Positions 28,522 through 51,497 of a DNA stretch of 64,000 nt are shown in pieces. The stretch is from contig NZ_CANMEZ010000002.1 in the NCBI RefSeq assembly GCF_947496985.1, positions 701,803 through 765,802 on the forward strand. Direction: 5' to 3'. Origin of the DNA: an uncultured Kordia sp. (GTDB lineage: Bacteria; Bacteroidota; Bacteroidia; Flavobacteriales; Flavobacteriaceae). A program made the translations under genes and the position numbers. Each line of letters opens with the position of its first letter. The first letter of the stretch is position 1. Under the pieces are notes generated by a model that was not told where the DNA came from, ran no database searches, and worked only from the letters and a program-made list of their open reading frames with translations.

Positions 28522-28716
28522 CTAACAAGCAAAAGAGTTACAATTTGCACAACGTGTTTGTGTTCTTTCTGTAGGACATACGCTATATTGTGATTGTCTA
28601 CAAGTAGGTCCACCAATAGTACTTCCTACGACTCCACCTAAAATTTGATCTGTTGTTAAGTTGGAAACTAATTGTTTCTTCAAATTCAATCCTGTTTTTA
28701 AATTCTGTTTTTTCAT
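28522..28716 (-). CDS. RiPP (class I lanthipeptide-type) precursor peptide 1
   Basis: I start at the internal ATG at 28716 (MKKQNLKTGLNLKKQLVSNL), giving 64 residues; the track start adds seven unlikely residues. The leader has the LxLKK...VSNL pattern and ends in ILGG, a double-glycine processing site. The core (VVGSTIGGPTC to the end) has five Cys and many Ser/Thr, as in lanthipeptide-type precursors. Four relatives with the same leader are at 37089, 41334, 41678 and 51327. It lies antisense between the response regulator and the di-heme peroxidase. No modifying enzyme is nearby. Confidence 0.8.
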   Translation of the reverse strand: MKKQNLKTGLNLKKQLVSNLTTDQILGGVVGSTIGGPTCRQSQYSVCPTERTQTRCANCNSFAC

Positions 28717-33008: not shown

Positions 33009-34457
33009 ATGAGTAAGTATACCGAAGAAGAATTACAAAAAGAACTCGAAACAAAAGAATACGAGTACGGGTTTTATACAGATATTGAAAGTGACACATT
33101 TCCTAGTGGATTGAATGAAGAAATTGTAATAGCAATTTCAAAAAAGAAAAACGAACCACAATGGATGACAGATTGGCGAATTGAAGCTTTTAGAATTTGG
33201 TCGGAAATGGAAGAGCCAGAATGGGCAAATGTACATTATGAAAAACCAGATTTTCAAGCCATTTCATATTATTCAGCTCCTAAAAAAGCAGATCCAAACA
33301 AAACGTTAGATGATGTAGATCCTGAGTTATTGGAAATGTACAAAAAACTTGGAATTTCTATTGATGAGCAAAAAAAATTACAAGGTGTCGCTATTGATAT
33401 TGTTGTAGATTCTGTTTCAGTTGCTACGACTTTCAAAAAGACATTAGCCGAAAAAGGTATCATCTTCTGTCCTATCTCAGAAGCGATTCAAGATCATCCT
33501 GAATTGGTGAAAAAATATTTAGGAACTATTGTTCCACAAAAAGATAACTTCTATGCCGCTTTAAACTCGGCAGTATTTACGGATGGCTCATTCTGTTACA
33601 TTCCAAAAGGCGTTCGTTGCCCTATGGAATTATCAACCTATTTCCGAATCAATCAAGCAGGAACCGGTCAGTTTGAACGTACACTTTTAGTTGCCGATAA
33701 AGGAAGTTATGTAAGTTACTTAGAAGGATGTACAGCGCCATCACGTGATGAAAATCAATTGCATGCTGCAGTTGTAGAGTTAATTGCATTAGATGATGCA
33801 GAAATAAAATACTCAACAGTTCAGAACTGGTATCCTGGAAATGCAGAAGGAAAAGGTGGTGTTTTTAACTTTGTAACCAAAAGAGGTTTGTGTGAGAAAA
33901 ACGCAAAAATTTCTTGGACGCAAGTAGAAACAGGTTCAGCAGTAACATGGAAATATCCTAGTTGTATTTTAAAAGGAAACAATTCGGTTGGTGAATTCTA
34001 CTCAATTGCAGTTACCAATAATTTCCAACAAGCAGATACAGGAACAAAAATGATTCATCTTGGAAAAAATACCAAGAGTACTATCATTTCAAAAGGAATT
34101 TCTGCAGGAAAATCGCAAAACAGCTATAGAGGTTTGGTTCAAATTGCCCCAAAAGCGGAAAACGCGCGTAACTTTTCACAATGTGATTCACTCTTAATGG
34201 GGAATCAATGTGGTGCACACACCTTTCCATATATAGAAGCAAAAAACAAATCTGCACAAATAGAACACGAAGCAACGACAAGTAAAATTGGAGAAGACCA
34301 AATATTCTATTGCAATCAACGTGGAATCGACACAGAAAAAGCAATTGCTTTAATTGTAAATGGTTTCAGCAAGGATGTATTGAACAAACTACCAATGGAA
34401 TTTGCCGTTGAAGCACAAAAACTATTAGAAATTTCATTAGAAGGTTCAGTAGGATAG
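33009..34457 (+). CDS. sufB: Fe-S cluster assembly scaffold SufB
   Basis: This 482-residue protein has SufB length and its characteristic blocks ([84 protein letters not shown]). SufB forms the SufBC2D scaffold on which iron-sulfur clusters are built. It is followed by a small lipoprotein gene 29 bp downstream, then by sufC. Confidence 0.96.
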
Positions 34458-34486
34458 ATAATCAATCATTAAAAATTAAAGCAAAC

Positions 34487-34894
34487 ATGAAAAAAATCTA
34501 TTTCATATTCGCAGTATGCATGTTGACAATCGTAAGTTGTAAAAATGACGCTAAGAGTTCTGATAAAGAAACAGAAAAGACTGTAGCTTCGCAATACGAA
34601 ACATTTACAGGTATGTTTTTATACTTGGAAAGTGAAAAAGCAGCCGTTTTCCAGGCAGCTGGAAGCAACATGTACGGAGTCGTAATAGACGATCAAATGT
34701 TAGCACTTAACAAAGAGTGCAAAAAATACAAAACAAAAGAACACGATATGGTTCCTGTTGTTATTAAAGGAATTACAAAGCCAAATCCTGTAAAAGATGC
34801 TTGGAAAGAAGTAATTGAAATTAAAGAAATTGTTTCAGTTCAAAAGCCAAGTGAAAATCAAGATGGTACTATTATCATCACAAACAATCAATAA
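34487..34894 (+). CDS. Small lipoprotein inserted between sufB and sufC
   Basis: This 135-residue lipoprotein has a clear lipobox (LTIVSCKND) and a short beta-rich domain containing YETFTGMFLYLESEKAAVFQAAG and VPVVIKGITKPNPVKDAWKEVIEIKEI. I do not recognise the family. It is 29 bp after sufB and 31 bp before sufC on the same strand, so it is transcribed with cytoplasmic iron-sulfur genes although it is exported. A functional link is not obvious. Confidence 0.8.
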   Translation: MKKIYFIFAVCMLTIVSCKNDAKSSDKETEKTVASQYETFTGMFLYLESEKAAVFQAAGSNMYGVVIDDQMLALNKECKKYKTKEHDMVPVVIKGITKPNPVKDAWKEVIEIKEIVSVQKPSENQDGTIIITNNQ

Positions 34895-34925
34895 TTTCGA
34901 TTAAAAAAATATAACACGCAGTAAA

Positions 34926-35678
34926 ATGTTACACGTAAAAAATTTACACGCAAGTGTCGAAGATAAAGCAATTCTAAAAGGAATTAATTTAGAAGTAAAA
35001 GCAGGAGAAGTACATGCAATCATGGGACCAAATGGCTCTGGAAAAAGCACACTATCTTCTGTAATTGCTGGAAAGGAAGAATATGAAGTAACTGATGGAG
35101 AAATCTTTTTAAATGGTGAAAACATTGAAGAACTTTCTGCCGAAGAGCGTGCACATGAAGGTGTATTTTTATCATTTCAATATCCTGTAGAAATCCCTGG
35201 AGTTTCTGTAACAAACTTCGTTAAAACTGCTATCAACGAAACGCGCAAAGCGAAAGGTGAAGACGAAATGCCTGCAAGTGCTATGTTGAAGAAAATTAGA
35301 GAAAAAGCAGAATTATTAGAAATTGATCGTAAATTTTTATCTCGTTCGTTAAATGAAGGATTTTCTGGAGGAGAAAAGAAACGTAACGAAATTTTCCAAA
35401 TGGCCATGTTAGAACCAAAATTAGCCATCTTAGATGAAACAGATTCTGGTTTGGATATTGATGCCTTACGTATTGTTGCCAATGGTGTAAATAAACTACG
35501 CAGTGAAGATAACGCAGTTATTGTAATTACACATTACCAACGCTTATTAGAATATATTGTTCCAGATTTTGTACATGTATTACACAATGGTAAAATTGTA
35601 AAATCAGGAACGAAAGAATTAGCCTTAGAATTAGAAGAAAAAGGATACGATTGGATTAAACAAGAAGCAACTGTTTAA
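34926..35678 (+). CDS. sufC: Fe-S assembly ATPase SufC
   Basis: This 250-residue ABC-type ATPase has Walker A (GPNGSGKST), the ABC signature (FSGGEKKR), Walker B ([12 protein letters not shown]) and a switch His (VITHYQRLL). All are as in SufC, which powers the SufBC2D complex. There is no membrane part. It is 23 bp upstream of sufD. Confidence 0.96.
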
Positions 35679-35701
35679 GCAACGATCACAAAACGATATA
35701 C

Positions 35702-37021
35702 ATGGAGTTAAAAGATAAATTATTGTCATCCTTTATGGTTTTTGAAGATCGTGTACATGATCAATCAAAAGATTTAAACGATATCAGAAATGCAGCGATT
35801 AAAACGTTTGAACAAAAAGGATTTCCTACCAAAAAAGATGAAGATTGGAAATATACTTCCTTGAATGCTCTATTGAAGCACGATTATAGTATTTCTCCAC
35901 AACAAGAAACTGCTGTTGAGTTTAAGGATGTAAAGAAGTTTTTTATTCACGATATTGATACCTATAAAATTGTATTTATCGATGGAAAATATAGTTCTTT
36001 CCTTTCGGAAACGACACATGATGGCATTGATGTTTGTTTAATGAGTTCAGCATTAAACAAGCCTAAATATAAAATCATTATTGATTCATATTATAACAAA
36101 GCTGCAAAATCAGATCATAGTTTAACGTCTTTAAATACGGCTTTTGCTTCTGAAGGTGCATACATTCATATTCCAAAAAATAAAGTAGTAGAAAAGCCAA
36201 TTCAAATTGTCCATTTTTCTACTGGAAATGAAGCTTCGTTATTATTACAACCACGTAATTTAATTGTGGTTGATGAAAATTCGCATGTACAAATTATTGA
36301 GCGTCATCAAAGTTTAACATCAAATGTAGTGTTGACAAATTCGGTAACGGAAATTTTCGCAAATAAACGTGCGATTGTTGATTATTATAAAATTCAAAAT
36401 GATAACCAACAAGCTTCGTTAATCGACAATACCTATATTTCACAAAAGCAAAGTAGCCATGCTTCTGTACATACATTTTCATTTGGCGGAAAATTGATTA
36501 GAAACAATCTGCAATTCTTTCAAAAAGGAGAACACATTGATTCTACTATGAAAGGAATCACAATTATTGGCAACAAACAACATGTTGACCATAATACATT
36601 GGTACATCATATTGAGCCAAATTGTGAAAGTCATCAAGATTACAAAGGTATTTTTGCAGATAGGTCTACAGGAGTATTTAACGGGAAAGTTGTTGTTGAG
36701 AAAGAAGCACAAAAGACAAATGCTTTCCAGGCGAACAATAATATTTTAGTAGACGACAAAGCAACTATTAACACTAAACCTCAGCTTGAAATTTTTGCAG
36801 ATGATGTAAAATGTTCACACGGTTGTACGATTGGTCAGTTAGACAAAGATGCTTTATTTTATTTACGCTCACGCGGAATTCCGACAAAAGAAGCCAAAGC
36901 TTTATTAACATATGCTTTTGCGAACAATGTATTGGAAAGCGTAAAAATAAATTCGATTAAAACACGAATTAATAAATTAATAGCTCAGAAATTAGGCGTT
37001 AATTTAGGATTCGATTTATAA
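35702..37021 (+). CDS. sufD: Fe-S assembly protein SufD
   Basis: This 439-residue protein is SufD, the paralogue of SufB in the scaffold complex. Evidence includes KDEDWKYTSLNALL near the N-terminus, a long beta-helix core, and the C-terminal block DDVKCSHGCTIGQLDKDALFYLRSRGI. It ends the first suf segment and is followed by a strong terminator. Confidence 0.95.
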   Translation: MELKDKLLSSFMVFEDRVHDQSKDLNDIRNAAIKTFEQKGFPTKKDEDWKYTSLNALLKHDYSISPQQETAVEFKDVKKFFIHDIDTYKIVFIDGKYSSFLSETTHDGIDVCLMSSALNKPKYKIIIDSYYNKAAKSDHSLTSLNTAFASEGAYIHIPKNKVVEKPIQIVHFSTGNEASLLLQPRNLIVVDENSHVQIIERHQSLTSNVVLTNSVTEIFANKRAIVDYYKIQNDNQQASLIDNTYISQKQSSHASVHTFSFGGKLIRNNLQFFQKGEHIDSTMKGITIIGNKQHVDHNTLVHHIEPNCESHQDYKGIFADRSTGVFNGKVVVEKEAQKTNAFQANNNILVDDKATINTKPQLEIFADDVKCSHGCTIGQLDKDALFYLRSRGIPTKEAKALLTYAFANNVLESVKINSIKTRINKLIAQKLGVNLGFDL

Positions 37022-37042
37022 AATATAACGACATAAAAACAG

Positions 37043-37073
37043 AAAACCCGAAGTATATGCTTCGGGTTTTTTC
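37043..37073 (+). terminator. Terminator after sufD
   Basis: AAAACCCGAAG and CTTCGGGTTTT form a perfect 11-bp stem with a 6-base loop, followed by a T run. Confidence 0.88.
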
Positions 37074-37088
37074 ATTTTCATAGAATTT

Positions 37089-37301
37089 TTAAATCGATAC
37101 TGGAGGATTTATGAGAATTGATGTGTCAAATGTTAAACATCCATCACACGAATTACATGAGTTACATGAGCCAGTGCATGAAAACGCACACGAATTCCTT
37201 GTAATAATTATAGTTCCAGTGATGAAAACATCGTTTCCTCCTTTCAATTCTGAGATTGATGTTTTGTTAAGCTTAAGTGATTTTAATCCTCTTTTTTTCA
37301 T
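37089..37301 (-). CDS. RiPP precursor peptide 2
   Basis: This 70-residue peptide starts MKKRGLKSLKLNKTSISELKGG, the shortest version of the shared LxLNK...GG leader. The core begins NDVFITG and contains a dense Cys/Ser/Gly block (CAFSCTGSCNSCNSCDGC). A hydrophobic tail, LTFDTSILINPPVSI, follows it. Six Cys at spacings of 3-5 residues could form thioether or other crosslinks. It is antisense between sufD and the DUF2589 group, and no modifying enzyme is nearby. Confidence 0.78.
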   Translation of the reverse strand: MKKRGLKSLKLNKTSISELKGGNDVFITGTIIITRNSCAFSCTGSCNSCNSCDGCLTFDTSILINPPVSI

Positions 37302-37403
37302 GATAAATAATTTTAAAAATTGATAGTTACAAGGTTTTAAAAAATCAATCTCAATGTAAGAGGCTAAACACTAATAGTGTGTACGTAGAAATGCGTAAAA
37401 GCA

Positions 37404-37437
37404 AAAATCCCTAAGCAAATACCTTGGGATTTTTTTA
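37404..37437. terminator. Terminator-like hairpin
   Basis: AAAAATCCCTAAG and CCTTGGGATTTTTTT pair across CAAATA with A/T tracts on both sides. It probably ends the minus-strand DUF2589 unit and could also stop plus-strand read-through. Confidence 0.65.
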
Positions 37438-37446
37438 TTGCGAACT

Positions 37447-37983
37447 TTATAATGTTACTTCTTCCGCAATGATTCTAAATATATCAACCTCTGGAACCAA
37501 TGTCTGTAATTGTAGAGCAACTGAACTAAATTGAGGATCTGCTTTCAGTTTTGCCCATATAATTTTGATATATTTATTGAAGTTATCCTGATCTCTTTGT
37601 TGATAATCTGGCTGATCTTTTACTAAAACCAACACTTGTTGAATTGTTTCTCTGGCTTGACTAATTTTTGAATTGATAGGATCGTGCAAACTTACCAAGA
37701 CTGTATGAGCTGTTGCCAAACATTCAGCAGAAACCATAAACTGATGTTTGCGTTTTTGTGGAATATCTTTCTCTTTTGCAATGAATAATTGATTTCGTAA
37801 AATGCTTATCCTACTTGACTCTGCATACCCAAATTGCTTCAACACTTGTTCGTTTTCTGAAAGCCAACGCTCAATCTCTGCAAAAAAGCGGGAAGATTTG
37901 GAGCGAAGCAATTCAGAAATTAACCCAACTTTCAAAATAGATGTTTCAAAAAAGGTATGCTTTTCTATAATACTTGTTTTCAT
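37447..37983 (-). CDS. Hypothetical protein, third gene of DUF2589 unit
   Basis: This 178-residue soluble, mostly helical protein has no signal peptide. Its N-terminus (KHTFFETSILKVGLISELLRSKSS) is followed by charged helices and 'KIIWAKLKADPQFSSVALQLQTLVP'. I do not recognise a family. It is 35 bp downstream of the 38019 gene, reads in the same direction and ends at the 37404 hairpin, so it closes the three-gene unit. Confidence 0.65.
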   Translation of the reverse strand: MKTSIIEKHTFFETSILKVGLISELLRSKSSRFFAEIERWLSENEQVLKQFGYAESSRISILRNQLFIAKEKDIPQKRKHQFMVSAECLATAHTVLVSLHDPINSKISQARETIQQVLVLVKDQPDYQQRDQDNFNKYIKIIWAKLKADPQFSSVALQLQTLVPEVDIFRIIAEEVTL

Positions 37984-38018
37984 GTTTTCTTTGGTTTAAT
38001 TTTTTTTTGCGAATCGAC

Positions 38019-38810
38019 TTATTCGTAATTCAATACCTGTACTGTATTTCCTTCTGCATCAACATCTGTTGTCCATTCCATAGCATCATCCATAATATTT
38101 ACTTTGATATTGATCATACTTGCCGGATCATTAATTTCTTTGAGTTTTTGTGTTTCTATAATCACTGGAAGCTCCTCTATTTCAGGTAATCTTTGTTGTA
38201 AATTGCTTTCAATTTCTAACACCATTGCATTACGAAACGTAGCTTCTTCAATATATGAACCAACAAAAGCTGAATACGCTTTAGAAGCAAATTTCTCCGC
38301 TTCTTCCCTTACTATTGTACTATAACTATTTGGTGACACTGGTGATAAATCATCTCTAGTTACCGCTACTTCAGAATCACGTTTTGTGCTTAAAGTAGCT
38401 TCTGATGAATTTTGTACTGTTAAAGCTGAAACGGTTTCTAAATCTGTAGCTATTTTAACGGAATAATCTTTTGCGATTTGTGAGACTTGTGATCTTATCT
38501 CGTTAATGTATTCTACTTGTTGTTCTGTTTTATTTGGAATAAGGTCTGAATTCACTTTAAAAAATGCCTTTTCATACACTTCTTGAATTTCTCTTTCAGA
38601 ATAATTTCTTGTGACTGTTTGTGTATTATCAACAGCAACAGGAATTGTCAATTCTACATTTTTGATACGAATATTTGGCACAGAAAAATGCTTTAACATA
38701 GGGTTATTTACATATTCATCTGCAATGGCCAATGTTTCAATATCTGACTGCACTTTTGCATTGGTGATTTCTTTATAAATCTTTCCTATATAATCTTTTA
38801 ATGTAATCAT
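38019..38810 (-). CDS. Hypothetical protein, second gene of DUF2589 unit
   Basis: This 263-residue soluble protein begins MITLKDYIGKIYKEITNAKVQSD, followed by a beta-rich part (HFSVPNIRIKNVELTIPVAV). Long acidic helices come next and the C-terminus is INIKVNIMDDAMEW. I do not recognise a named family. The start resembles proteins encoded beside DUF2589 proteins, which also treat 'ADxYVxxP' and 'PxxRIKNVELTIPV'-like segments as their core; this is a weak impression only. It lies between the DUF2589 gene and the 37447 gene. Confidence 0.65.
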   Translation of the reverse strand: MITLKDYIGKIYKEITNAKVQSDIETLAIADEYVNNPMLKHFSVPNIRIKNVELTIPVAVDNTQTVTRNYSEREIQEVYEKAFFKVNSDLIPNKTEQQVEYINEIRSQVSQIAKDYSVKIATDLETVSALTVQNSSEATLSTKRDSEVAVTRDDLSPVSPNSYSTIVREEAEKFASKAYSAFVGSYIEEATFRNAMVLEIESNLQQRLPEIEELPVIIETQKLKEINDPASMINIKVNIMDDAMEWTTDVDAEGNTVQVLNYE

Positions 38811-38829
38811 GATTTTATTTTTTTAGGTA

Positions 38830-38855
38830 GAAGAAACCTCCAAAGAGGTTTCTTC
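38830..38855. repeat. Intercistronic hairpin in DUF2589 unit
   Basis: GAAGAAACCTC CAAA GAGGTTTCTTC is a perfect 11-bp stem between the DUF2589 gene and the next gene on the minus strand. It has no good U tract in that direction, so it may be a processing or partial-termination site that favours the first gene. Confidence 0.6.
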
Positions 38856-38868
38856 AATTAATTTTTAG

Positions 38869-39417
38869 TTAGGCTACTTTCTCAACTTCAGAAATTCCTT
38901 CTTCTAATAAATCTAAAACTCTGCTCATTCCAGCAGGTAATTCGTCTTGTACGGCATGGATTTTAATATTCATACTGTATGAACGTGTAGCTTCATCAGA
39001 GTAGCGGTTTTTCTTTTGGAACGAATAACTTCCTTTAAAATTCAATCGTCCAAATCCCCAACGTAAACGTAAATCTGCACTTAAGTTTAATTTGTGACTT
39101 GTCTCAGAAGTGTATTCAGTTACACTAGAAATTTTAGCATTAAAATCAATAGTAGTATCTGCTACACGCAAAAACGGAATTGGAATAATTGTTAATAAAG
39201 GAGTTGTTAACGTTACTGTTGTTGGCGAACCATCAACTAACTTTGAATACTCAAAAGTTACGTTTTTAACTTTACTGTCAGCATCAAGACCAACTGCATT
39301 GATAAAATCAACCGTTGATAAAGCTGCTGCTGCTTGCGCATCAATAACTGCTGTTAATGGTTTCCCTAACATTGCACTGAAATTGATGTTAGCGATTTCA
39401 TTTGGACTAACTGGCAT
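38869..39417 (-). CDS. DUF2589 domain-containing protein
   Basis: I start at the ATG at 39417 (MPVSPNEIANINFSAMLGKP), because the extra 31 residues of the track ORF are basic and unrelated to the domain. The 182-residue protein matches DUF2589: IGxPL-type opening 'SAMLGKPLTAVIDAQAAAALSTVDFINAVGL', a beta-rich centre and the end block IKIHAVQDELPAGMSRVLDLLEEGI. The family has no known function. It is first in a three-gene minus-strand unit with a good promoter at 39556-39587 and a hairpin directly after its stop. Confidence 0.85.
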   Translation of the reverse strand: MPVSPNEIANINFSAMLGKPLTAVIDAQAAAALSTVDFINAVGLDADSKVKNVTFEYSKLVDGSPTTVTLTTPLLTIIPIPFLRVADTTIDFNAKISSVTEYTSETSHKLNLSADLRLRWGFGRLNFKGSYSFQKKNRYSDEATRSYSMNIKIHAVQDELPAGMSRVLDLLEEGISEVEKVA

Positions 39418-39555
39418 AATTGTAATATTTAAAATTTTTAACCTACTCTTTTTTAAAAGGCTTTTCGGCTTTCTCCTTAGGTCGTGAGCTTTATCGCGAA
39501 TAATTCTCACATCATTTTAAGCTTAAAATTATACTCTTTCGAAAGAATTACAATG

Positions 39556-39587
39556 CAAATATAAAACATATGTTGCAATTAAGCAAA
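39556..39587 (-). promoter_or_regulatory. Promoter of the DUF2589 unit
   Basis: On the minus strand TTTG (39587 to 39584), a 20-bp spacer and TATATTTG (39563 to 39556) fit the Bacteroidota -33/-7 promoter. The leader before the ATG at 39417 would be about 130 bases. Confidence 0.65.
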
Positions 39588-39789
39588 CATATTACAGTAA
39601 ATATTTGCAGCAGCCTATTAAAAAATTGTAATATGTTGTAAGATATGTGTAAAAAATACTTATAAGAGATTGGAATCTGTAATTTTGAAGAATTAAGGCA
39701 TCATTATGCTAATTTACAGACGCACGAAAACATATGTTCGTTTTGTACATAACATTTGTGATAGTTGCAGCAGAAAAATTTACTATTAA

Positions 39790-41133
39790 TTATTCAATAG
39801 CTGTACATATATTTTTTAGAAAAGAATTGAAATCCATTCCATCGTTTCCAGCCAGCCCAAAACGAACTACGACTAAATCCTTTGATGGAATAATGTATAC
39901 ACGTTGCCCTTGGTAACCGTTTGCTGAATACATATCTTTTGGCACATCTGGATGAAAACCACCTGCGTTGAGCCAAAAGTGTGCCCCATAGCGTCCGTCA
40001 GAAGTTGGTGTTGGCTTAGTCACATAATCTACCCAAGAAGCATCAAATAGTTGTGTTCCGTTCCAGTTTCCTTTGTGTAAATATAATAGTCCAAACTTCG
40101 CCCAATCACGTGGAGTTGCCCAAGAATATGAAGACCCAACATAGTTTCCTTCCATATCGGCTTCTAACAACATTGAATGCATTCCTATTTTATCAATGAA
40201 TTCATCATATGGAAAATCTAAATATGCTTGATGATTTGAAAATTGCTTTCGCAGAATTCCTGATAGTAAATTTGATGTTCCAGAAGAGTAATACCAAGTT
40301 TCGTTTGGCTTCCCAATTAATGGTTTTTCAGCTTGCGACTTTGTCATGTCTTTTTCAAGAAACAACATCTTAGTTACATCTGATATTTTACCATAATCTT
40401 CTTCCCATTCCAAACCACTATTCATTTGTAATAGATTGTGTATCGTAATTGCGTTGCGTTCATCTTCTTTCCATTCATCAATTGGCGCTTTGTCCCAAAC
40501 ACTCAATTTTCCTTGATATTGTAAAATCCCATACATGGTACTTACCAAACTTTTTGTCATAGACCAACCTAGTATTCTAGAATCTTTATTAAACCCATCT
40601 GCATATTGCTCTGCTAGTATTTGATCTTTATATATGACTAAAACTGCACGTGTTTTTTTAACATCTTCTCCATCTACTTTTTCAAAAGCATTAGCAACTG
40701 CTGCATTAATTTGATCATATTTTACATTAGAAAATACTGTATCTTTTTGCTTCATTCCACCATATGGATATGGCGCCATGCGTGTAATGGAACTTCTATG
40801 TGGCACAGGCGTTTCCTGAGAAAGATCGTAATCATCCGTAATTAAAACACTTCCCAAGCCTTTTCTGTATACTGCTTTACGTGTCATTAATCCGTAAACG
40901 GAAGCAGAAGCCATTTTTTTACTTTCATCTACTTCATCGGCAGCAATATTGATAGGTCCGAAGTTATTATCTGTTTCATCAGTAAATTCTACGCTTCTTC
41001 CTGCAACAAATACAGAGGAACTCATACTTTTTGCAGAATAGCCTGAAATAATGTTCAAACGCGAATAATTAAATGCTATTACAATTCCTAAAAGGACAAC
41101 TATGACGGCAAGTATTTTGAATGCTTTCTTCAT
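39790..41133 (-). CDS. Serine hydrolase (class C beta-lactamase-like)
   Basis: This 447-residue protein has an N-terminal membrane or signal segment (FKILAVIVVLLGIVIAF) and a class C beta-lactamase/PBP-like domain. The SxxK nucleophile motif is in LGWSMTKSLVSTMYG, and the Tyr motif is in WYYSSGTSNLLSGIL (YxS/N type). Relatives include esterases and D-aminopeptidases, so antibiotic hydrolysis is not implied. It probably acts in the periplasm. Nothing in the neighbourhood points to its substrate. Confidence 0.88.
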   Translation of the reverse strand: MKKAFKILAVIVVLLGIVIAFNYSRLNIISGYSAKSMSSSVFVAGRSVEFTDETDNNFGPINIAADEVDESKKMASASVYGLMTRKAVYRKGLGSVLITDDYDLSQETPVPHRSSITRMAPYPYGGMKQKDTVFSNVKYDQINAAVANAFEKVDGEDVKKTRAVLVIYKDQILAEQYADGFNKDSRILGWSMTKSLVSTMYGILQYQGKLSVWDKAPIDEWKEDERNAITIHNLLQMNSGLEWEEDYGKISDVTKMLFLEKDMTKSQAEKPLIGKPNETWYYSSGTSNLLSGILRKQFSNHQAYLDFPYDEFIDKIGMHSMLLEADMEGNYVGSSYSWATPRDWAKFGLLYLHKGNWNGTQLFDASWVDYVTKPTPTSDGRYGAHFWLNAGGFHPDVPKDMYSANGYQGQRVYIIPSKDLVVVRFGLAGNDGMDFNSFLKNICTAIE

Positions 41134-41333
41134 GATAAATCAATTTCTGTACTCAAATATATTAAAATGAAATTTAGTAATGACATCTATCGTAGTGTTT
41201 TCCCTTTGTGAGAAATAGGAAAAACACCTAATTATTTTATCTATATACCTGCCTGCCAATAAATTAAAACAATTGACCTTTATCAAACTGTTACGTAACG
41301 GTGAAAATTATAAACCTTTTTAAAACAAAAACC

Positions 41334-41594
41334 ATGAAAAAAAACAAAAAAAGCTTAAAAAAATTATCGTTAAACAAAGATGTAATTTCAAATTTAGAGA
41401 ATGGTAGAATTAATGGTGGAGCACCAATTACTGTAGTTATTTGTCCAATTGTAACCAGATTTAACTGTCCAGTATTAACACCAGCGTGTCCTATATTAAC
41501 AAATCCTATCTGTCCTATTTTAACACCGGCTTGTCCAATTCAATCAAGATTCGTTTGTTCTGATGTTGGATGTCCATCTGACTTTATCTGCTAA
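41334..41594 (+). CDS. RiPP precursor peptide 3 with Cys-Pro repeat core
   Basis: I start at the ATG at 41334 (MKKNKKSLKKLSLNKDVISNL), giving 86 residues with the leader ending INGG. The core has eight Cys, most in CP(I/V) units: CPIVTRFN, CPVLTPA, CPILTNPI, CPILTPA, CPIQSRFV, then a C-terminal CSDVGCPSDFIC. The unit length alternates 8-7-8-7-8 residues. The next gene (41678) has nearly the same leader and a related CP-repeat core, so the two are tandem duplicates that diverged. No modifying enzyme is nearby. Confidence 0.82.
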   Translation: MKKNKKSLKKLSLNKDVISNLENGRINGGAPITVVICPIVTRFNCPVLTPACPILTNPICPILTPACPIQSRFVCSDVGCPSDFIC

Positions 41595-41626
41595 TTTTTA
41601 GCAATTAATTATTAACAAGATTAAGG

Positions 41627-41650
41627 GCAACTACTGTAAAAAGTAGTTGC
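41627..41650 (+). terminator. Hairpin after RiPP precursor 3
   Basis: GCAACTACT GTAAAA AGTAGTTGC is a perfect 9-bp stem. Only a weak T tract follows (TGCTTAATTT), so it may leak into the next precursor. The loop GTAAAA is identical to that of the hairpin after precursor 4. Confidence 0.6.
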
Positions 41651-41677
41651 TGCTTAATTTATTAACACGTTACAACC

Positions 41678-41926
41678 ATGAAAAAAAATAAAAAAAGTTT
41701 AAAGAAATTGACGCTTAATAAAAAAGTAGTGTCAAATTTAGAAAGCGAACAAATTAGTGGAGGAACTATTGTTACTATAGCATGTCCGGTAACTATTTTT
41801 TGTCCAACTCGATTTTGTCCGACAAAATTCAATTGTCCAACACTATTTAACTGTCCAACGCTTGGAGGTTGCCCTACATTCGGTGCATGTCCGTCAATAG
41901 CTGGTGGATGTCCAACAACTTTTTAG
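41678..41926 (+). CDS. RiPP precursor peptide 4 with CPT repeat core
   Basis: This 82-residue peptide starts MKKNKKSLKKLTLNKKVVSNL and its leader ends ISGG. The core is eight consecutive units starting with Cys-Pro (CPVTIF, CPTRF, CPTKFN, CPTLFN, CPTLGG, CPTFGA, CPSIAGG, CPTTF), about one Cys per six residues, with Thr or Ser usually right after the Pro. Such a regular Cys/Thr core suggests repeated thioether rings, a metal site, or a repeated processing unit. It is a tandem paralogue of precursor 3, 83 bp downstream. Confidence 0.82.
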   Translation: MKKNKKSLKKLTLNKKVVSNLESEQISGGTIVTIACPVTIFCPTRFCPTKFNCPTLFNCPTLGGCPTFGACPSIAGGCPTTF

Positions 41927-41950
41927 TTATAGGAAGTGTTTAAAACGTAT

Positions 41951-41982
41951 GAAGTCGCTGTAAAAAGCGACTTCTCTTTTTA
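41951..41982 (+). terminator. Terminator after RiPP precursor 4
   Basis: GAAGTCGCT GTAAAA AGCGACTTC is a perfect 9-bp stem followed by TCTTTTTATTT. It has the same loop as the hairpin at 41627. Confidence 0.82.
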
Positions 41983-44472
41983 TTTATATTTTGATTCAGG
42001 AAGTGACATGGCTTGTGGATAGTTTTTAGCGCGACTCAAAATATAATCTGCTTTTGCTTTCTCCATTTGCCCTAATTGTTCGTAACAATATCCTCTACTG
42101 TATTCAGCTTTTCCATCACTAAAAGCACCTGCATCGATTACAACACTTAAGTTTTTAATTGCTTTTTCGTAGTTCTTTTTTACTAAATCTATAATCCCAA
42201 TATTTTGAACCGATAAGTAATCTTTAGGGTTTGTTTTTAGAATTTCTTGAAAAATCTTCCTAGCTTCTTCATACTTTTGTTGACTAAAGAAATTAAACGC
42301 AACTTGATGTTTCTGCTTCACCTCTGCACTACTTAAGTAAGATTTAAATTTTAACTTGTTCAACACTTCCTTTTTGGCTTTTAACAATGTATTACTGTTT
42401 GTATTATATACCAAACCTGTATCTAGTACTTTTAGCATCAATTCGCTATTTTTAGTACGATTGTACATCGTATTTGCTTTTACTTTCCATTCGTTTACAT
42501 CAACCCAATTTAACTTTGTATATCTATTCATTATACGAGATAGGTTTGCAGTATCTTTTTGCTTGTTATAAATTCCTTTTAAAAGTCTATAGTTTGTTTT
42601 AAAAGCTGGATATCCATCAAATATGGCTTCTGAGTAATAGGCTGCACTATCCATATTATCATACACATTGTAAAAAATCTCTGCTTTGAAAGCTTTTACC
42701 AAGAAAGCATCTTTGTTATAATCTTGTGATTTGTTTAGAATCTCTAACGCTTCTTCATATTTTTTTGCTTTGATCGCATAGTTTGCTAAGTATACATTGT
42801 TTACGGTTCCTACATAACTTAATTCTGGATAGTTAGACCATTGTTTTTTTATACTTTGATATGAATTGTTCAGTTTTTCATCCGTGAATAGTGTTTTTCC
42901 GCTTAAATCTTGACGCATTGCACGTTGTAATCTATACGATTTTAACACCAAATAATTTGAAGCTACACTAGCAAAACTCACAAAGAAGATAATTCCAAAT
43001 AATATCACTGAACGCTTACTTATGATAGTTTCGCCTTCTTTTTGTGTAAATGTCAAAATAAAAATTACGGCAAGTAAAAAGTAGAGTTGAATTGGCGCTC
43101 TTTCTAACGGGAAGTTTAACAAAGCATCAAATGTATACGCTAATGCAGATAAGAAAATAGTAAAATACAACAGTTGTTTTCCAAAATCTTTTTCGTTGCG
43201 AATCAATTTAAAAAACAACCATAACGGAAACAAAAATAGAGATACATATAGTAGAAACCCAATAACTCCTGTTTCTGCTAACTTTTCAAGAAAGTCGTTG
43301 TGCGCTCTTCTAGGGTTTTTAAAATTTCCTTTATCTGTCGTTAAATTTATATAATGCTCTTTTTTCCCAACTGCTTTATAGTTTCCATAGCCAACACCTA
43401 AGATTGGATTTTCTTGAAACTTTATAAATGCTAAATTCCACAAAGAAGATCGTCCTGAAACACTACTTTTATCAACAGTAATTGTTCCTGTATTTGGTAA
43501 CAACTCTTTTACATTGTCTATATTTCTTTTTACAGCGATATCACCTTCATAAAAATCTATCAATTTAGGTTGAAATAGTGTTGTAAGACTGTTCATAGAC
43601 ATTTTATCCACTCTATTTACATTCAACACTAAAATAATTGCTACAATAGGCATTAAAAATAATACAACAGCTTCTTTCCTAAGAGCTATTTTATGCCTTA
43701 CAATTCCATATATAATAAAACCTACTAACAATGTCATCACAATTACTAAAGACAAAACTGCCGTTCTCGATCCTGAAAAGAATAATGCCAACATTGTCAT
43801 AAAAATAGCAACACTTGCAATGTATTTCCATACTTTTTTAAAATATAAAAACGCATATAATACAAACGGAAGCTGTACTATTAAAAATGCGGTATAAATA
43901 TTTACACTAGAAAAATGATGCTGAAAATCATTAATAAAATCATTAATTCTTGGGCTGGATGCATTTCCTAAAAAATAACGTACAGATCGCCAAGAAAAGT
44001 AAATAACAAGCAACGTTGCGATGCGACATGTAAATTCGAAAAACGATCTCGGATTTTGTTTTACAAACACATACAAACAATACAAGGCAACCAAAATAGC
44101 TATCAATCGTGCCAAATGCACCAAACTTTCACTTACATTAATTGCCGTTAACATTGATAAACAACCAATTGCAAAAAAACCAATAAATAATAAAAAATAG
44201 CGTTGTACATGTTTTGGAAATGAAAACACTTCAAACTCATCTCTATTTTTATAGATAAAACCTAGCGAAATTAAATTCAAAACAGATACATACAACCATT
44301 CTGGCGCGTCATAATCCATAGCGCCAAGCAATGGCATCAATCCTGTAAGTAAGTATAAAACAAATAGAATTTTCGCTATAGTAACATTGGTATCTTCACT
44401 AGGCGTAGTGTTTGCGGCTTTTTTGGTTTTCATGTTGGCTTGTTTAAATCGCTGAAATCTATCAATGAACAC
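41980..44472 (-). CDS. O-antigen ligase family protein with C-terminal TPR repeats
   Basis: This 830-residue protein has about 10-12 membrane segments in residues 30-500, with a Wzy_C/O-antigen ligase type periplasmic loop (WNLAFIKFQENPILGVGYGNYKAV ... RRAHNDFLEKLAETGVIGFLLY). A soluble C-terminal half (about 540-830) follows, with TPR-like helices (YEEARKIFQEILKTNPKDYLSVQNIGIIDL, YEKAIKNLSVVIDAGA). Such fusions are common in Bacteroidota and are thought to polymerise or ligate surface polysaccharide or glycosylate proteins. The ATG 13 codons inside (MKTKKAANT) is an alternative start. No other polysaccharide gene is close. Confidence 0.87.
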   Translation of the reverse strand: MFIDRFQRFKQANMKTKKAANTTPSEDTNVTIAKILFVLYLLTGLMPLLGAMDYDAPEWLYVSVLNLISLGFIYKNRDEFEVFSFPKHVQRYFLLFIGFFAIGCLSMLTAINVSESLVHLARLIAILVALYCLYVFVKQNPRSFFEFTCRIATLLVIYFSWRSVRYFLGNASSPRINDFINDFQHHFSSVNIYTAFLIVQLPFVLYAFLYFKKVWKYIASVAIFMTMLALFFSGSRTAVLSLVIVMTLLVGFIIYGIVRHKIALRKEAVVLFLMPIVAIILVLNVNRVDKMSMNSLTTLFQPKLIDFYEGDIAVKRNIDNVKELLPNTGTITVDKSSVSGRSSLWNLAFIKFQENPILGVGYGNYKAVGKKEHYINLTTDKGNFKNPRRAHNDFLEKLAETGVIGFLLYVSLFLFPLWLFFKLIRNEKDFGKQLLYFTIFLSALAYTFDALLNFPLERAPIQLYFLLAVIFILTFTQKEGETIISKRSVILFGIIFFVSFASVASNYLVLKSYRLQRAMRQDLSGKTLFTDEKLNNSYQSIKKQWSNYPELSYVGTVNNVYLANYAIKAKKYEEALEILNKSQDYNKDAFLVKAFKAEIFYNVYDNMDSAAYYSEAIFDGYPAFKTNYRLLKGIYNKQKDTANLSRIMNRYTKLNWVDVNEWKVKANTMYNRTKNSELMLKVLDTGLVYNTNSNTLLKAKKEVLNKLKFKSYLSSAEVKQKHQVAFNFFSQQKYEEARKIFQEILKTNPKDYLSVQNIGIIDLVKKNYEKAIKNLSVVIDAGAFSDGKAEYSRGYCYEQLGQMEKAKADYILSRAKNYPQAMSLPESKYK

Positions 44473-44676
44473 ATCTTGATTTTTTAATTCTCTAAAGAAT
44501 AACTAAAATGAGTTCCCTAATTTGAAAGCAAAATACGAGAAAAAACTCAAAATAATTTACATCCTACTTAGAAAGAAAATCATATTTACGATGAAAGGCA
44601 AAAAGCAGCGTTTAGTGTTGTTACAATTACAACTGATTTCATATAAAAAGTGACAAGGCATTCTATGAATAGTTAG

Positions 44677-44684
44677 TATCTTTG
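44677..44684 (+). promoter_or_regulatory. -7 box of sufS
   Basis: TATCTTTG, 19 bases before the sufS start, is identical to the -7 box of the sufA-D operon (32520). This supports independent transcription of the detached suf gene. Confidence 0.55.
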
Positions 44685-44703
44685 CACAGATAGAATTCAG
44701 ACT

Positions 44704-45915
44704 ATGTTAGATATTCAAAAAATAAGAAAAGATTTTCCTATTCTCAATCGAGAAGTAAATGGAAAACCCTTAATATACTTCGATAATGCGGCAACTTCGC
44801 AAACACCACAACAAGTAATTGATTGTATTGTAGATTATTATTCACGTTACAATGCAAACATTCATAGAGGTGTACATACGTTAAGTCAGGAAGCAACGGA
44901 TGCTTATGAAGAAGCACGTATAAAAATTCAGCAACATTTTAATGCGGCAAAACCGCATGAAATGATTCTTACTTCAGGAACTACAGATAGTATTAATTTA
45001 GTTGCCAATGGATTTTCTTCGCTTTTACAAAAAGGTGACGAAATCATTGTTTCTGCGTTAGAACATCATTCAAATATTGTTCCTTGGCAAATGTTGTGCG
45101 AACACACAGGTGCTATTTTAAAAGTAATTCCAATGTTTGAAGATGGAAAACTTGATATGGATGCGTATGTTTCATTATTGAATGAAAATACAAAATTGGT
45201 CTTCTGTAATCATGTGTCCAATGCCTTGGGAATTATCAATCCGATCGAATTTATCATCGAAAAAGCACATGCCGTAAACGCAGCTGTATTAATCGATGGC
45301 GCACAAGCTTCTCCACATATAAAAGCAGATGTACAAGCATTGGATGTTGATTTCTATGTAGCTTCTGCACATAAAATTTGTGGTCCAACTGGTGTTGGAT
45401 TATTATATGGAAAAGAAGCTTGGCTGAATAAATTACCTCCATACAGAGGTGGTGGCGAAATGATTGACCAAGTTACGTTTGAAAAAACAACGTATGCAGG
45501 TTTGCCACACAAATTTGAAGCTGGAACGCCAAATATTTGCGGCGTTATTGCTTTTGGAGCTGCTTTAGATTATATGAATAATATTGGTTTTGACGCTATT
45601 GCTGCATATGAAGACGAATTATTAGCCTATGCTACCCAAAAATTGCTAGCTGTTGGTGATGTTACTATTTACGGAACTGAAAACAAAGTAGCCGTAATTT
45701 CATTTAATATAGCAAACATTCATCCGTATGATATTGGAACTATTATAGACAAGCTAGGAATAGCCGTTCGTACAGGACACCATTGTGCGCAACCAATTAT
45801 GGATTTCTACAACATTCCAGGAACGGTTCGTGCTTCATTTTCATTTTACAATACCAAAGAAGAAATAGATACCTTTATTGAAGCTATAAAAAAGGCTAAA
45901 ATGATGCTTTCGTAA
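44704..45915 (+). CDS. sufS: Cysteine desulfurase SufS
   Basis: This 403-residue PLP enzyme takes sulfur from cysteine as a protein persulfide. The PLP lysine is in VASAHKICGPTGVGLLYG, and the catalytic Cys is in VRTGHHCAQPIMDFY. Other class V blocks include YFDNAATSQTP and ILTSGTTDSINLVANG. Its partner SufE is 1.9 kb downstream at 47842. It has its own promoter and terminator and is separated from sufD by 7.7 kb of unrelated genes. Confidence 0.96.
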   Translation: MLDIQKIRKDFPILNREVNGKPLIYFDNAATSQTPQQVIDCIVDYYSRYNANIHRGVHTLSQEATDAYEEARIKIQQHFNAAKPHEMILTSGTTDSINLVANGFSSLLQKGDEIIVSALEHHSNIVPWQMLCEHTGAILKVIPMFEDGKLDMDAYVSLLNENTKLVFCNHVSNALGIINPIEFIIEKAHAVNAAVLIDGAQASPHIKADVQALDVDFYVASAHKICGPTGVGLLYGKEAWLNKLPPYRGGGEMIDQVTFEKTTYAGLPHKFEAGTPNICGVIAFGAALDYMNNIGFDAIAAYEDELLAYATQKLLAVGDVTIYGTENKVAVISFNIANIHPYDIGTIIDKLGIAVRTGHHCAQPIMDFYNIPGTVRASFSFYNTKEEIDTFIEAIKKAKMMLS

Positions 45916-45945
45916 TAAAAAGCACTTAAAATACCATCCATCTAC

Positions 45946-45975
45946 AGAATCGACCCATTGGTCGATTCTTTTTAT
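45946..45975 (+). terminator. Terminator after sufS
   Basis: AGAATCGACC CATT GGTCGATTCT is a perfect 10-bp stem followed by TTTTATTTT. Confidence 0.9.
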
Positions 45976-46112
45976 TTTAAATACATTCAAAATATTTGTG
46001 TATTTCATCGATAAACTTACTATTTCTCACTTATAGGTCAAAACTCTCAAATATTGTATTTGCAACAAAGTTGCTATAAAACTGTTATTTATCTAAAATT
46101 TTAGGCTTTTTG

Positions 46113-46142
46113 TTGTGAAAATCACAAAAAATTATACATTTG
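46113..46142 (+). promoter_or_regulatory. Promoter of the M43 lipoprotein gene
   Basis: TTG at 46113-46115, a 19-bp spacer and TACATTTG at 46135-46142 fit the Bacteroidota -33/-7 promoter. The ATG is 39 bases downstream. Confidence 0.7.
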
Positions 46143-46180
46143 ATCGATTTTAACCCGAATTAACTTTAAAGACAAAAATT

Positions 46181-47245
46181 ATGAGAAAAATTTTTCTGAG
46201 TATGATTGCACTTGCGGCAATTACGGTATCATGTAGTGATGACCAAACTACTGACACAAATGAAATACCACAACAAGAAGCGGTAGACATGAGTGATTTC
46301 TACTTGTATACTGATGCTAATACCTATGTTGGTAGAGGAGAACAAGCAACTACTGGTGGCTGTTTTAGTATGCAAAAGCTAAATCAACAATTAGATAACG
46401 ATCCTCAGTTATACCAAAAAATGTACGACCTCGAAAAAAAGTACAGACAAAATACTATTGCACAAAGACCAGGAAATGGTAACGGAAATAATAACAATGG
46501 CGGAGGTGGTGATCCAGAACCACCAACAGACAATTTAGGTGTGGTAACTATTCCTGTATATGTGCATGTTGTATACAGTAACAGTAATGAAAACATTAGT
46601 AGTGCACAAATTAATTCTCAAATCGCAGTATTAAATGACGATTTTAGAAGAAATAACAATGACGCTAATCAAACACCATCATTATTTGCTCCAGTAGCTG
46701 CAGATACTGAAATTCAGTTTACTTTAGCTAACACATTTAGATATTCAAACTCAAGAACTTCTTGGGGAACTAATGATTTAGTAAAATCAACATATCCACC
46801 AGTAACACCTTCAACTCACTTAAATATTTGGGTTTGTAATATTGGTGGTGGAATCTTAGGATATGCACAATTTCCTGGTGGAAGTTCAGCTACAGATGGA
46901 GTTGTAGTTTCTCCACAGTATTTTGGAACAACTGGATTTGTTGCTGCTCCATTTGATGGAGGTAGAACAACAACACATGAAGTTGGTCATTACTTAAACT
47001 TACGTCACATTTGGGGAGACGGAAGATGTAACAGAGATGATTTTGTTTCTGATACACCAAAATCTGACAGACCAAATTACGGATGTCCATCATTCCCAAC
47101 AACACATTGTCGTTCAACAGATATGACTATGAACTATATGGATTACACAGATGATGCATGTATGAATATGTTTAGTGAAGGTCAAAAAAGTAGAATGCGT
47201 GGTGTATTAGTTTCTGGTGGAGCTAGAGCAAGTCTTGTAAATTAA
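46181..47245 (+). CDS. M43 zinc metalloprotease lipoprotein
   Basis: This 354-residue lipoprotein (lipobox ITVSCSDDQ) has a Gly/Asn-rich linker near residue 105 (GNGNGNNNNGGGGDP) and a pappalysin-type catalytic domain. The zinc site HEVGHYLNLRH spans residues about 266-276, with WGDGRC following and MNYMDYTDD as Met-turn. It is a surface- or periplasm-facing protease without the T9SS domain found in the relative at 8411. It sits alone, with its own promoter and terminator, between sufS and sufE. Confidence 0.92.
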   Translation: MRKIFLSMIALAAITVSCSDDQTTDTNEIPQQEAVDMSDFYLYTDANTYVGRGEQATTGGCFSMQKLNQQLDNDPQLYQKMYDLEKKYRQNTIAQRPGNGNGNNNNGGGGDPEPPTDNLGVVTIPVYVHVVYSNSNENISSAQINSQIAVLNDDFRRNNNDANQTPSLFAPVAADTEIQFTLANTFRYSNSRTSWGTNDLVKSTYPPVTPSTHLNIWVCNIGGGILGYAQFPGGSSATDGVVVSPQYFGTTGFVAAPFDGGRTTTHEVGHYLNLRHIWGDGRCNRDDFVSDTPKSDRPNYGCPSFPTTHCRSTDMTMNYMDYTDDACMNMFSEGQKSRMRGVLVSGGARASLVN

Positions 47246-47275
47246 TCTACGTTAAAGTGCTAAATTTAATAGAAG

Positions 47276-47302
47276 AAAGACGTCAAATTGGCGTCTTTTT
47301 TT
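47276..47302 (+). terminator. Terminator after M43 lipoprotein gene
   Basis: AAAGACGTC and GGCGTCTTT pair across AAATT with one G-U pair, followed by TTTT. Confidence 0.82.
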
Positions 47303-47336
47303 GTATTATTATATAACAAAATTAAAAATACGACTC

Positions 47337-47789
47337 ATGAAATATCTTCTATGTTTATTCTCCATTACATTATTTGCTAAAGGTTGTAATAACTCAGAAA
47401 CTGAAACTATAAAAAGTGCCCAAGACGATATTTCAATTTCATACGAAGCATCTTCTCGTGGCTTCTATCAAAAAGTAAATCTTACCAAAGAAAAATTTTC
47501 ATTTACCAAAATTAGAGACGGCAAAGTTTCTGTACAACAAGAGATGTCTACAGAAGATTGGAATGAAATTATACAACTCTTAGATAAGATTGATTCTGAA
47601 AAAGTAAAAAGCAATCCTGCGAAAGAAGAAGATCTTGCCAGAGATGCTGCCATTCCTGCAACCTTAGCTATTAAATACAAAGACAATACGGTAACCACAA
47701 GTTCATTTGGTCATGGAAATCCACCAGAAACACTAGCGCCTTTAATGAATAAAATTCAAGCAATGATAAAAGCAGTTGATAAACCGTAA
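47337..47789 (+). CDS. Small hypothetical lipoprotein
   Basis: I start at the ATG at 47337 (MKYLLCLFSITLFAKGCNN), where a lipoprotein signal begins; the track adds 12 residues. The product of about 150 residues has a single small domain with SFTKIRDGKVSVQQEMSTEDWNEIIQLL and a conserved-looking TTSSFGHGNPPETLAPLMNKIQ near the end. I believe such proteins recur in Flavobacteria but know no function. It lies just upstream of the sufE group, whose promoter overlaps its last codons. Confidence 0.75.
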   Translation: MKYLLCLFSITLFAKGCNNSETETIKSAQDDISISYEASSRGFYQKVNLTKEKFSFTKIRDGKVSVQQEMSTEDWNEIIQLLDKIDSEKVKSNPAKEEDLARDAAIPATLAIKYKDNTVTTSSFGHGNPPETLAPLMNKIQAMIKAVDKP

Positions 47790-47806
47790 TAGTTGTTGTA
47801 TTTTTG
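47776..47806 (+). promoter_or_regulatory. Promoter of the sufE group
   Basis: TTG at 47776-47778, a 20-bp spacer and TATTTTTG at 47799-47806 match the -33/-7 pattern. The -33 lies inside the end of the upstream lipoprotein gene. Confidence 0.6.
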
Positions 47807-47841
47807 CGTCTAAATAGTACAATCGTGTAAACGAAGAAAAA

Positions 47842-48264
47842 ATGACGATACAAGAGATACAAGAAGAAATAGTTGACGAGTTTGCTATGTTTGATGATTG
47901 GATGCAGCGCTACGAATACATGATTGACCTTGGGAAATCACTTCCACTTATTGACGAGAGTCTTAAAAAAGATGAAAACCTCATCAAAGGTTGTCAAAGT
48001 AAAGTATGGGTACATGGTGAGATGAAAGATGATAAAATTGTATTTACAGCGGACAGTGACGCAATTATCACCAAAGGAATCATTGCTATTCTAATCAGAG
48101 CCTTTTCTAATCAACATCCTTCTGCTATTATTGAAGCCAATACCGCTTTTATTGATGAAATTGGACTTAAAGAGCATTTATCACCAACAAGAGCAAATGG
48201 ATTGGTGAGCATGATTAAACAATTAAAGTTATATGCAATTGCATATCAAACACAATTAAACTAA
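47842..48264 (+). CDS. sufE: Sulfur acceptor SufE
   Basis: This 140-residue protein is SufE, which takes persulfide sulfur from SufS. It contains DWMQRYEYMIDLGKSLP and the active Cys in LIKGCQSKVWVHG. It begins a tight three-gene group: sufT starts four bases after its stop. Confidence 0.94.
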   Translation: MTIQEIQEEIVDEFAMFDDWMQRYEYMIDLGKSLPLIDESLKKDENLIKGCQSKVWVHGEMKDDKIVFTADSDAIITKGIIAILIRAFSNQHPSAIIEANTAFIDEIGLKEHLSPTRANGLVSMIKQLKLYAIAYQTQLN

Positions 48265-48268
48265 AAAA

Positions 48269-48595
48269 ATGTCAGTAGAAACAATAGATACAGCAGCTTT
48301 AGGCGAAAAAATAGTTAGAGTATTAAAAACAATTTACGATCCAGAAATTCCAGTAGACATCTACGAATTAGGGTTAATTTATGATGTTTTTGTAAACGAA
48401 AACCACGATGTAAAAATATTAATGACACTTACATCTCCAAACTGTCCTGTAGCAGAAACGCTTCCATTAGAGATTGAAGAAAAAGTAAAATCGTTAAAAG
48501 AAGTGAATAACGCTACTGTTGAAATTACTTTTGACCCTGAATGGACAAAAGATTTAATGAGTGAAGAAGCAAAACTAGAATTAGGTTTATTGTAA
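48269..48595 (+). CDS. sufT: MIP18/DUF59 family Fe-S assembly protein (SufT-like)
   Basis: This 108-residue DUF59 protein contains the family blocks IYDPEIPVDIYELGLIYDV and LTSPNCPVAETLP (conserved Cys), ending VEITFDPEWTKDLMSEEAKLELG. SufT-type proteins help mature or deliver iron-sulfur clusters. Its place between sufE and DUF2480 supports that role. Confidence 0.92.
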   Translation: MSVETIDTAALGEKIVRVLKTIYDPEIPVDIYELGLIYDVFVNENHDVKILMTLTSPNCPVAETLPLEIEEKVKSLKEVNNATVEITFDPEWTKDLMSEEAKLELGLL

Positions 48596-51326: not shown

Positions 51327-51497
51327 ATGAAAAAAAGAAATTTAAAGTCATTAAAGCTTAACAAAAAATCTGTTTCCAACTTACAAATAGACAAAGTAAA
51401 CGGAGGTTTTGACAGAGTAACGCTTACATTTTTTAACGGACTTTGTCAATGTCCAGCACCTACACGAAACAATGCCAGTTGGTGTATTTGTTTATAA
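51327..51497 (+). CDS. RiPP precursor peptide 5
   Basis: I start at the ATG at 51327 (MKKRNLKSLKLNKKSVSNL), giving 56 residues; the track start adds 15 unrelated residues. The leader ends KVNGG. The short core FDRVTLTFFNGLCQCPAPT ... WCICL has four Cys in two CxC pairs. It is the smallest of the five precursors here. A strong terminator follows and no modifying enzyme is near. Confidence 0.8.
   Translation: MKKRNLKSLKLNKKSVSNLQIDKVNGGFDRVTLTFFNGLCQCPAPTRNNASWCICL

Follow-up and report, generated by a model that had tools for sequence, protein, structure and literature searches.

Class I lanthipeptide precursors (LanA) of Bacteroidetes, including those of the pinensin kind, resemble the precursors studied here in their common leader motif, GG end, C39 exporter and LanB and LanC enzymes. 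According to Walker et al. (2020, PMC7268733), the motif of these precursors reads LxLxKx5L and is often accompanied by a C39 protease. As presented in the passages of that paper considered here, Bacteroidetes LanA are clustered with their own enzymes, unlike P3, P4 and most of their sister precursors, and no core forming a ladder of Cys-Pro (CP) rings is described among them. In Kordia itself, genome mining predicted in 2010 a type 1 lantibiotic cluster of K. algicida with one linked LanA, without reporting a scattered pool (PMC3091789); this cluster is very likely the same LanB/LanC operon as the one discussed below. A more recent survey from 2024 presents Kordia as RiPP-rich, and the pool is not described in its accessible portions (PMC11118758).

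Another relevant comparison is with the prochlorosins and synechococsins, of which ProcM has 29 and SyncM 79 substrates (PMC10783134). The likeness lies in a single modifying system for many dispersed precursors, in which a conserved leader precedes a hypervariable core. However, prochlorosins depend on a class II LanM, carry Nif11-type leaders and come from cyanobacteria, whereas in these Flavobacteriaceae the leaders belong to a class I family, the enzymes are LanB and LanC, with LanB co-occurring with the leaders, and there are more precursors per genome. By analogy, the Kordia pool appears to be the class I equivalent of the prochlorosin system, with a larger set of substrates, rather than a prochlorosin system itself. 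In the literature searched, with subscription papers outside its scope, no account of either the scattered pool or a CP ring ladder was found, in agreement with the original prediction, which knew of no characterised RiPP with such a core.

Leaders and repeated cores of P3 and P4

Both open reading frames were recovered where they had been predicted in the 64-kb window (the whole stretch of DNA that was analysed). P3 (41334–41594, + strand) encodes a class I lanthipeptide-type precursor of 86 aa, with its leader at 41334–41420 (to GG) and a core with 8 Cys at 41421–41591, and P4 (41678–41926, + strand) encodes a precursor of 82 aa, with its leader at 41678–41764 and a core of eight CP units at 41765–41923. 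Pfam gave no match that would name either precursor. The NCBIfam class I lanthipeptide leader NF038153 (curated cut-off 22 bits) matches P3 with 28 bits and P4 with 25.9 bits, both above the cut-off, which places the two leaders in an established class I family. These leaders read LxLxKx5L and terminate in GG; they had been called almost identical, a slightly generous wording for near-alike sequences sharing 22 of 29 residues to GG (76%).

The P4 core is indeed made of eight CP(V/T/S) units (one CPV, six CPT and one CPS), with Cys-Cys spacings of 6, 5, 6, 6, 6, 6 and 7. The 8-7-8-7-8 alternation reported for P3 is also real, within a full series of 8, 7, 8, 7, 8, 5 and 6, and Pro directly follows six of the eight Cys. 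A third CP-repeat precursor, absent from the original prediction, is located elsewhere in the genome (C2:202284) and contains nine Cys-Pro units. The P4 repeat is old, its DNA having diverged to 80% matches over 2.4 copies of an 18-bp unit; the C2:202284 gene still shows 15-bp repeats.

The P3/P4 pair is orthologous and syntenic in 11 of 11 Kordia genomes, one of which has a single member above threshold. Every named relative that was recovered is a Kordia, which assigns the genome to this genus. The closest relative is K. jejudonensis, whose P4 is 84% identical and which has a third tandem precursor copy. Unit types in the Kordia orthologs include CPIDTxx and CPxTxx. The proposal that the core evolves by repeat expansion therefore holds only in part: the units do change in sequence and length, and their number differs by about one (nine in the C2:202284 peptide versus eight in its K. 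jejudonensis relative), but the Cys number stays constant at 8–9 across the genus, and a wide expansion was rejected. Among 400 sampled genomes of the family, CP-repeat cores had no full match outside Kordia, and one other genus gave partial matches.

Position of Ser/Thr relative to Cys

In this genome, Ser/Thr occupies position -3 or -4 relative to 24 of the 25 CP-type Cys, a count reached by none of 20000 shuffles in which the Cys and Cys-Pro positions were held fixed (maximum 17). All eight Cys of P3 have this register, which was again matched by 0 of 20000 shuffles, and the ratio of Ser/Thr to Cys in P3 is exactly 8:8, the one-per-Cys proportion being also found in some orthologs. In P4, seven of eight Cys are in register and the last one has its Ser/Thr at -5. 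Neither the register nor the eight Ser/Thr per eight Cys of P3 had been mentioned in the original prediction. Genus-wide, 89% of the 202 Cys in 24 CP-family precursors have Ser/Thr at -3/-4, versus 39% in shuffles, and in a non-redundant set of 11 cores the register comprises 85 of 94 Cys versus 38 expected; a few P4 orthologs have 3–4 Cys out of register. In these precursors, Ser/Thr is nearly absent from positions -1 and -2. Unit length in the CP family ranges from 5 to 8 and the Ser/Thr offset from the preceding Cys varies from +2 to +4, while the distance to the following Cys is constant. Since the ring size would stay constant while the unit length varies, the register is no by-product of the repeat. 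Ser/Thr is found N-terminal to Cys at ring distance. The notion of CPT as the functional unit was rejected, because Ser/Thr lies at +4 in P3-type and at +2 in P4-type cores, with -3/-4 constant.

Comparison with K. jejudonensis points in the same direction. Between the P4 orthologs, the 23 codons for Cys, Pro and ring Ser/Thr show no amino-acid change and eight synonymous changes, and elsewhere in the core 10 of 30 residues have changed. In P3, the ring residues that differ have exchanged Ser and Thr or moved by one position, with a Thr still at ring distance. We read this conservation as selection for [S/T]xxC or [S/T]xxxC rings, mostly joined by one Pro. Several rings of nisin, a product of class I chemistry, have these same sizes, although nisin differs from the CP ladder in having five rings, no repeat unit and another type of leader.

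Remote enzymes and a genome-wide precursor pool

No modifying enzyme was found near P3/P4 in the 64-kb window, the operon being located on contig C1, and the two precursors thus lack enzymes encoded beside them. Such adjacency is usual, not defining, for lanthipeptides, and is absent from prochlorosins too. The genome contains one LanB and four LanC-like matches. The LanB operon is ordered LanC, LanB N-domain (PF04738) and SpaB_C (PF14028), with PF04738 (506 bits) and PF14028 (244 bits) in two adjacent genes and PF05147 (LanC) at 156 bits; the pinensin dehydratase is likewise split in two genes. Two precursors, a HlyD-type protein and a C39-peptidase ABC exporter are encoded near this operon. 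In alignments with NisB, a recent LanB structure, MibB and LanC-family structures, the glutamylation-domain positions R, R, T, D, R (NisB-type) and the elimination-domain positions R, R, H are retained, and the LanC lines up with its family at the Cys and Cys-His positions. We take these positions to be catalytic residues and zinc ligands, so that domain matches and alignment together indicate a LanB with both domains and a LanC with its presumed zinc ligands.

Exactly one LanB is present in 11 of 11 Kordia genomes, and the three LanC, LanB and SpaB_C genes are 85–98% identical across the genus. Sampled genomes without leader matches have no LanB, and six of the seven non-Kordia genomes with leader matches have one. 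As the enzymes are not clustered with P3/P4, the pairing rests on the leader, on exclusivity and on this co-occurrence. Against a pairing with the sole LanB stand the additional LanC proteins of the genome, together with its class V-like kinase/HopA1/LanC cluster.

From these sequence data, we consider it highly probable that P3 and P4 are LanA modified by the remote, shared LanB/LanC into a ring ladder. The leader family, the Ser/Thr register and the LanB/LanC operon likewise support the original proposal that these are RiPP precursors whose leader is conserved and whose core would form a ladder of like rings. The shared leader would recruit the split LanB, which would glutamylate Ser/Thr and then eliminate the glutamate, and LanC (or a second LanC) would join each Ser/Thr to the Cys that follows it by 3 or 4 residues. 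The predicted product is a ladder of about 8–9 small (methyl)lanthionine rings in succession, mostly with one Pro between neighbours; so long a chain of small rings jointed by Pro would be unusual. The C39 exporter would cleave after GG and secrete the peptide, and the same machinery would serve the ~200 scattered precursors of the genome. The product may be an antimicrobial, signal or structural peptide; our guess is that it is secreted and acts on other cells.

With weak scores included, the leader search gave 147 matches in this genome. The extracted regions contain 196 candidate precursors, of which 194 have Cys behind the leader and 168 fit the strict leader motif; the figure of about 195 leader-bearing precursors is a lower bound that covers these regions, later searches listing more outside them. 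The genes lie dispersed over the genome at a density of about one per 28 kb. A profile built from 55 leaders of this genome retrieved at least 122 to at least 150 matches in each Kordia genome and 0–6 in 11 other Flavobacteriaceae, and one other genus had 55 matches with a single LanB. The next largest leader count in an order-wide sample was 16, among fewer scored candidates per genome. The 189 non-CP cores also have a Ser/Thr bias on the N-terminal side of Cys, with -3 to -6 enriched and +4 depleted.

Each Kordia species probably possesses a combinatorial class I lanthipeptide library, in which one split LanB/LanC set would serve well over 100 (~200 here) scattered hypervariable precursors, the CP ring ladder being its most regular member and one that is conserved genus-wide. 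We know of no larger lanthipeptide substrate pool per genome. If true, this would be a second independent genome-scale diversification of lanthipeptides after the cyanobacterial prochlorosins, and the comparison of both would make the reason for such huge libraries testable. If it accepts ~200 natural substrates, the class I enzyme set would also offer a new engineering platform.

Other precursor types were observed in the genome. CGTxN repeats, in which every Cys is preceded by a Thr at -3, form a second periodic core type (C2:284288–284527 and C2:452697–452930, both on the - strand), also present in another genus (locus L176). A leader-bearing ORF (C3:237460–237684, -) has a core of FTHTFTHTFTDT repeats without Cys, in which only dehydration and no rings would be possible. 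On contig C15 (~9.7–13 kb; L058:4001–7219, +), three leader-bearing precursors with related NCIPxT cores adjoin a lone LanC, with no LanB. Finally, on contig C1 (~149.4–154.3 kb; L113:6399–11271, +), a repetitive 460-aa protein with GPTGTQGCTQPGHC-like blocks and AQAQ/GGAHAQ separators resembles a multi-core precursor; next come genes for an APH-like kinase, a HopA1-family protein and LanC, which make up a class V-like lanthipeptide set with a LanC cyclase.

Competing explanations and genomic surroundings

The regular Cys spacing and the location of the pair between sufD and sufS would also suit unmodified or disulfide-bonded cores acting as secreted metal-binding, metallothionein-like peptides in an interrupted SUF region. 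We regard this as quite improbable, and the metal-binding polymer originally suggested is disfavoured, because the leader is of the lanthipeptide type, the conserved Ser/Thr register has no obvious reason in a thiolate ligand and P3/P4, with Cys spacings of 5–8, contain none of the CxC/CxxC thiolate clusters of metallothioneins. Moreover, with ~200 sister genes scattered over the genome, the SUF neighbourhood is likely coincidental. A different possibility is that LanB dehydrates the cores but LanC leaves some rings open or uses another topology, such as Cys to downstream Ser/Thr. Ser/Thr does occur at +2 or +4 of Cys, because the units repeat, and in P4 alone +2/+3 fits equally well (8/8) as -3/-4, so that only the family-wide comparison separates them. 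We consider this possibility improbable, as the downstream offset differs by subfamily while the constant -3/-4 equals the spacing of the nisin rings mentioned above. Cleavage of the core between units into several small cyclic products, also part of the original prediction, would agree with units that repeat and resemble each other. We consider it very improbable, since no repeated protease site was found in the cores apart from the leader GG and most relatives do not retain the GG pairs that lie within P4.

P3 and P4 are separated by a terminator/attenuator-like hairpin (41626–41651, +; RNA fold 41615–41665 of -20.9 kcal/mol, z -6.5), and an intrinsic-terminator-like hairpin with an identical loop lies 3' of P4 (41951–41974, +; fold 41940–41990 of -15.2 kcal/mol, z -5.1). 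The first hairpin may attenuate P4. In a sigma-70 promoter scan, matches were no more frequent than in shuffles and no promoter was identified. Upstream, a beta-lactamase-fold protein (PF00144; 39790–41133, -) adjoins the pair in Kordia genomes and is taken only as a syntenic marker. The downstream neighbour is an O-antigen ligase/TPR protein (PF04932; 41980–44472, -), found in the same place in some other species. The SUF genes of the window (33009–48595) are split: sufB-C-D (33009–37021) are followed by a stretch of ~7.7 kb with the precursors and the DUF2589, beta-lactamase-fold and O-antigen ligase genes, beyond which sufS, sufE and a FeS assembly gene are located. The window also contains a leader-bearing pool precursor without CP repeats (28522–28716, -; genome match C2:730447, 21.3 bits) and two probable further precursors with NF038153 scores below the cut-off, one at 37089–37301 (-; core SCTGSCNSCNSCDGC, 11.3 bits) and one at 51327–51497 (+; 13 bits), the latter with a close relative at C1:344505.
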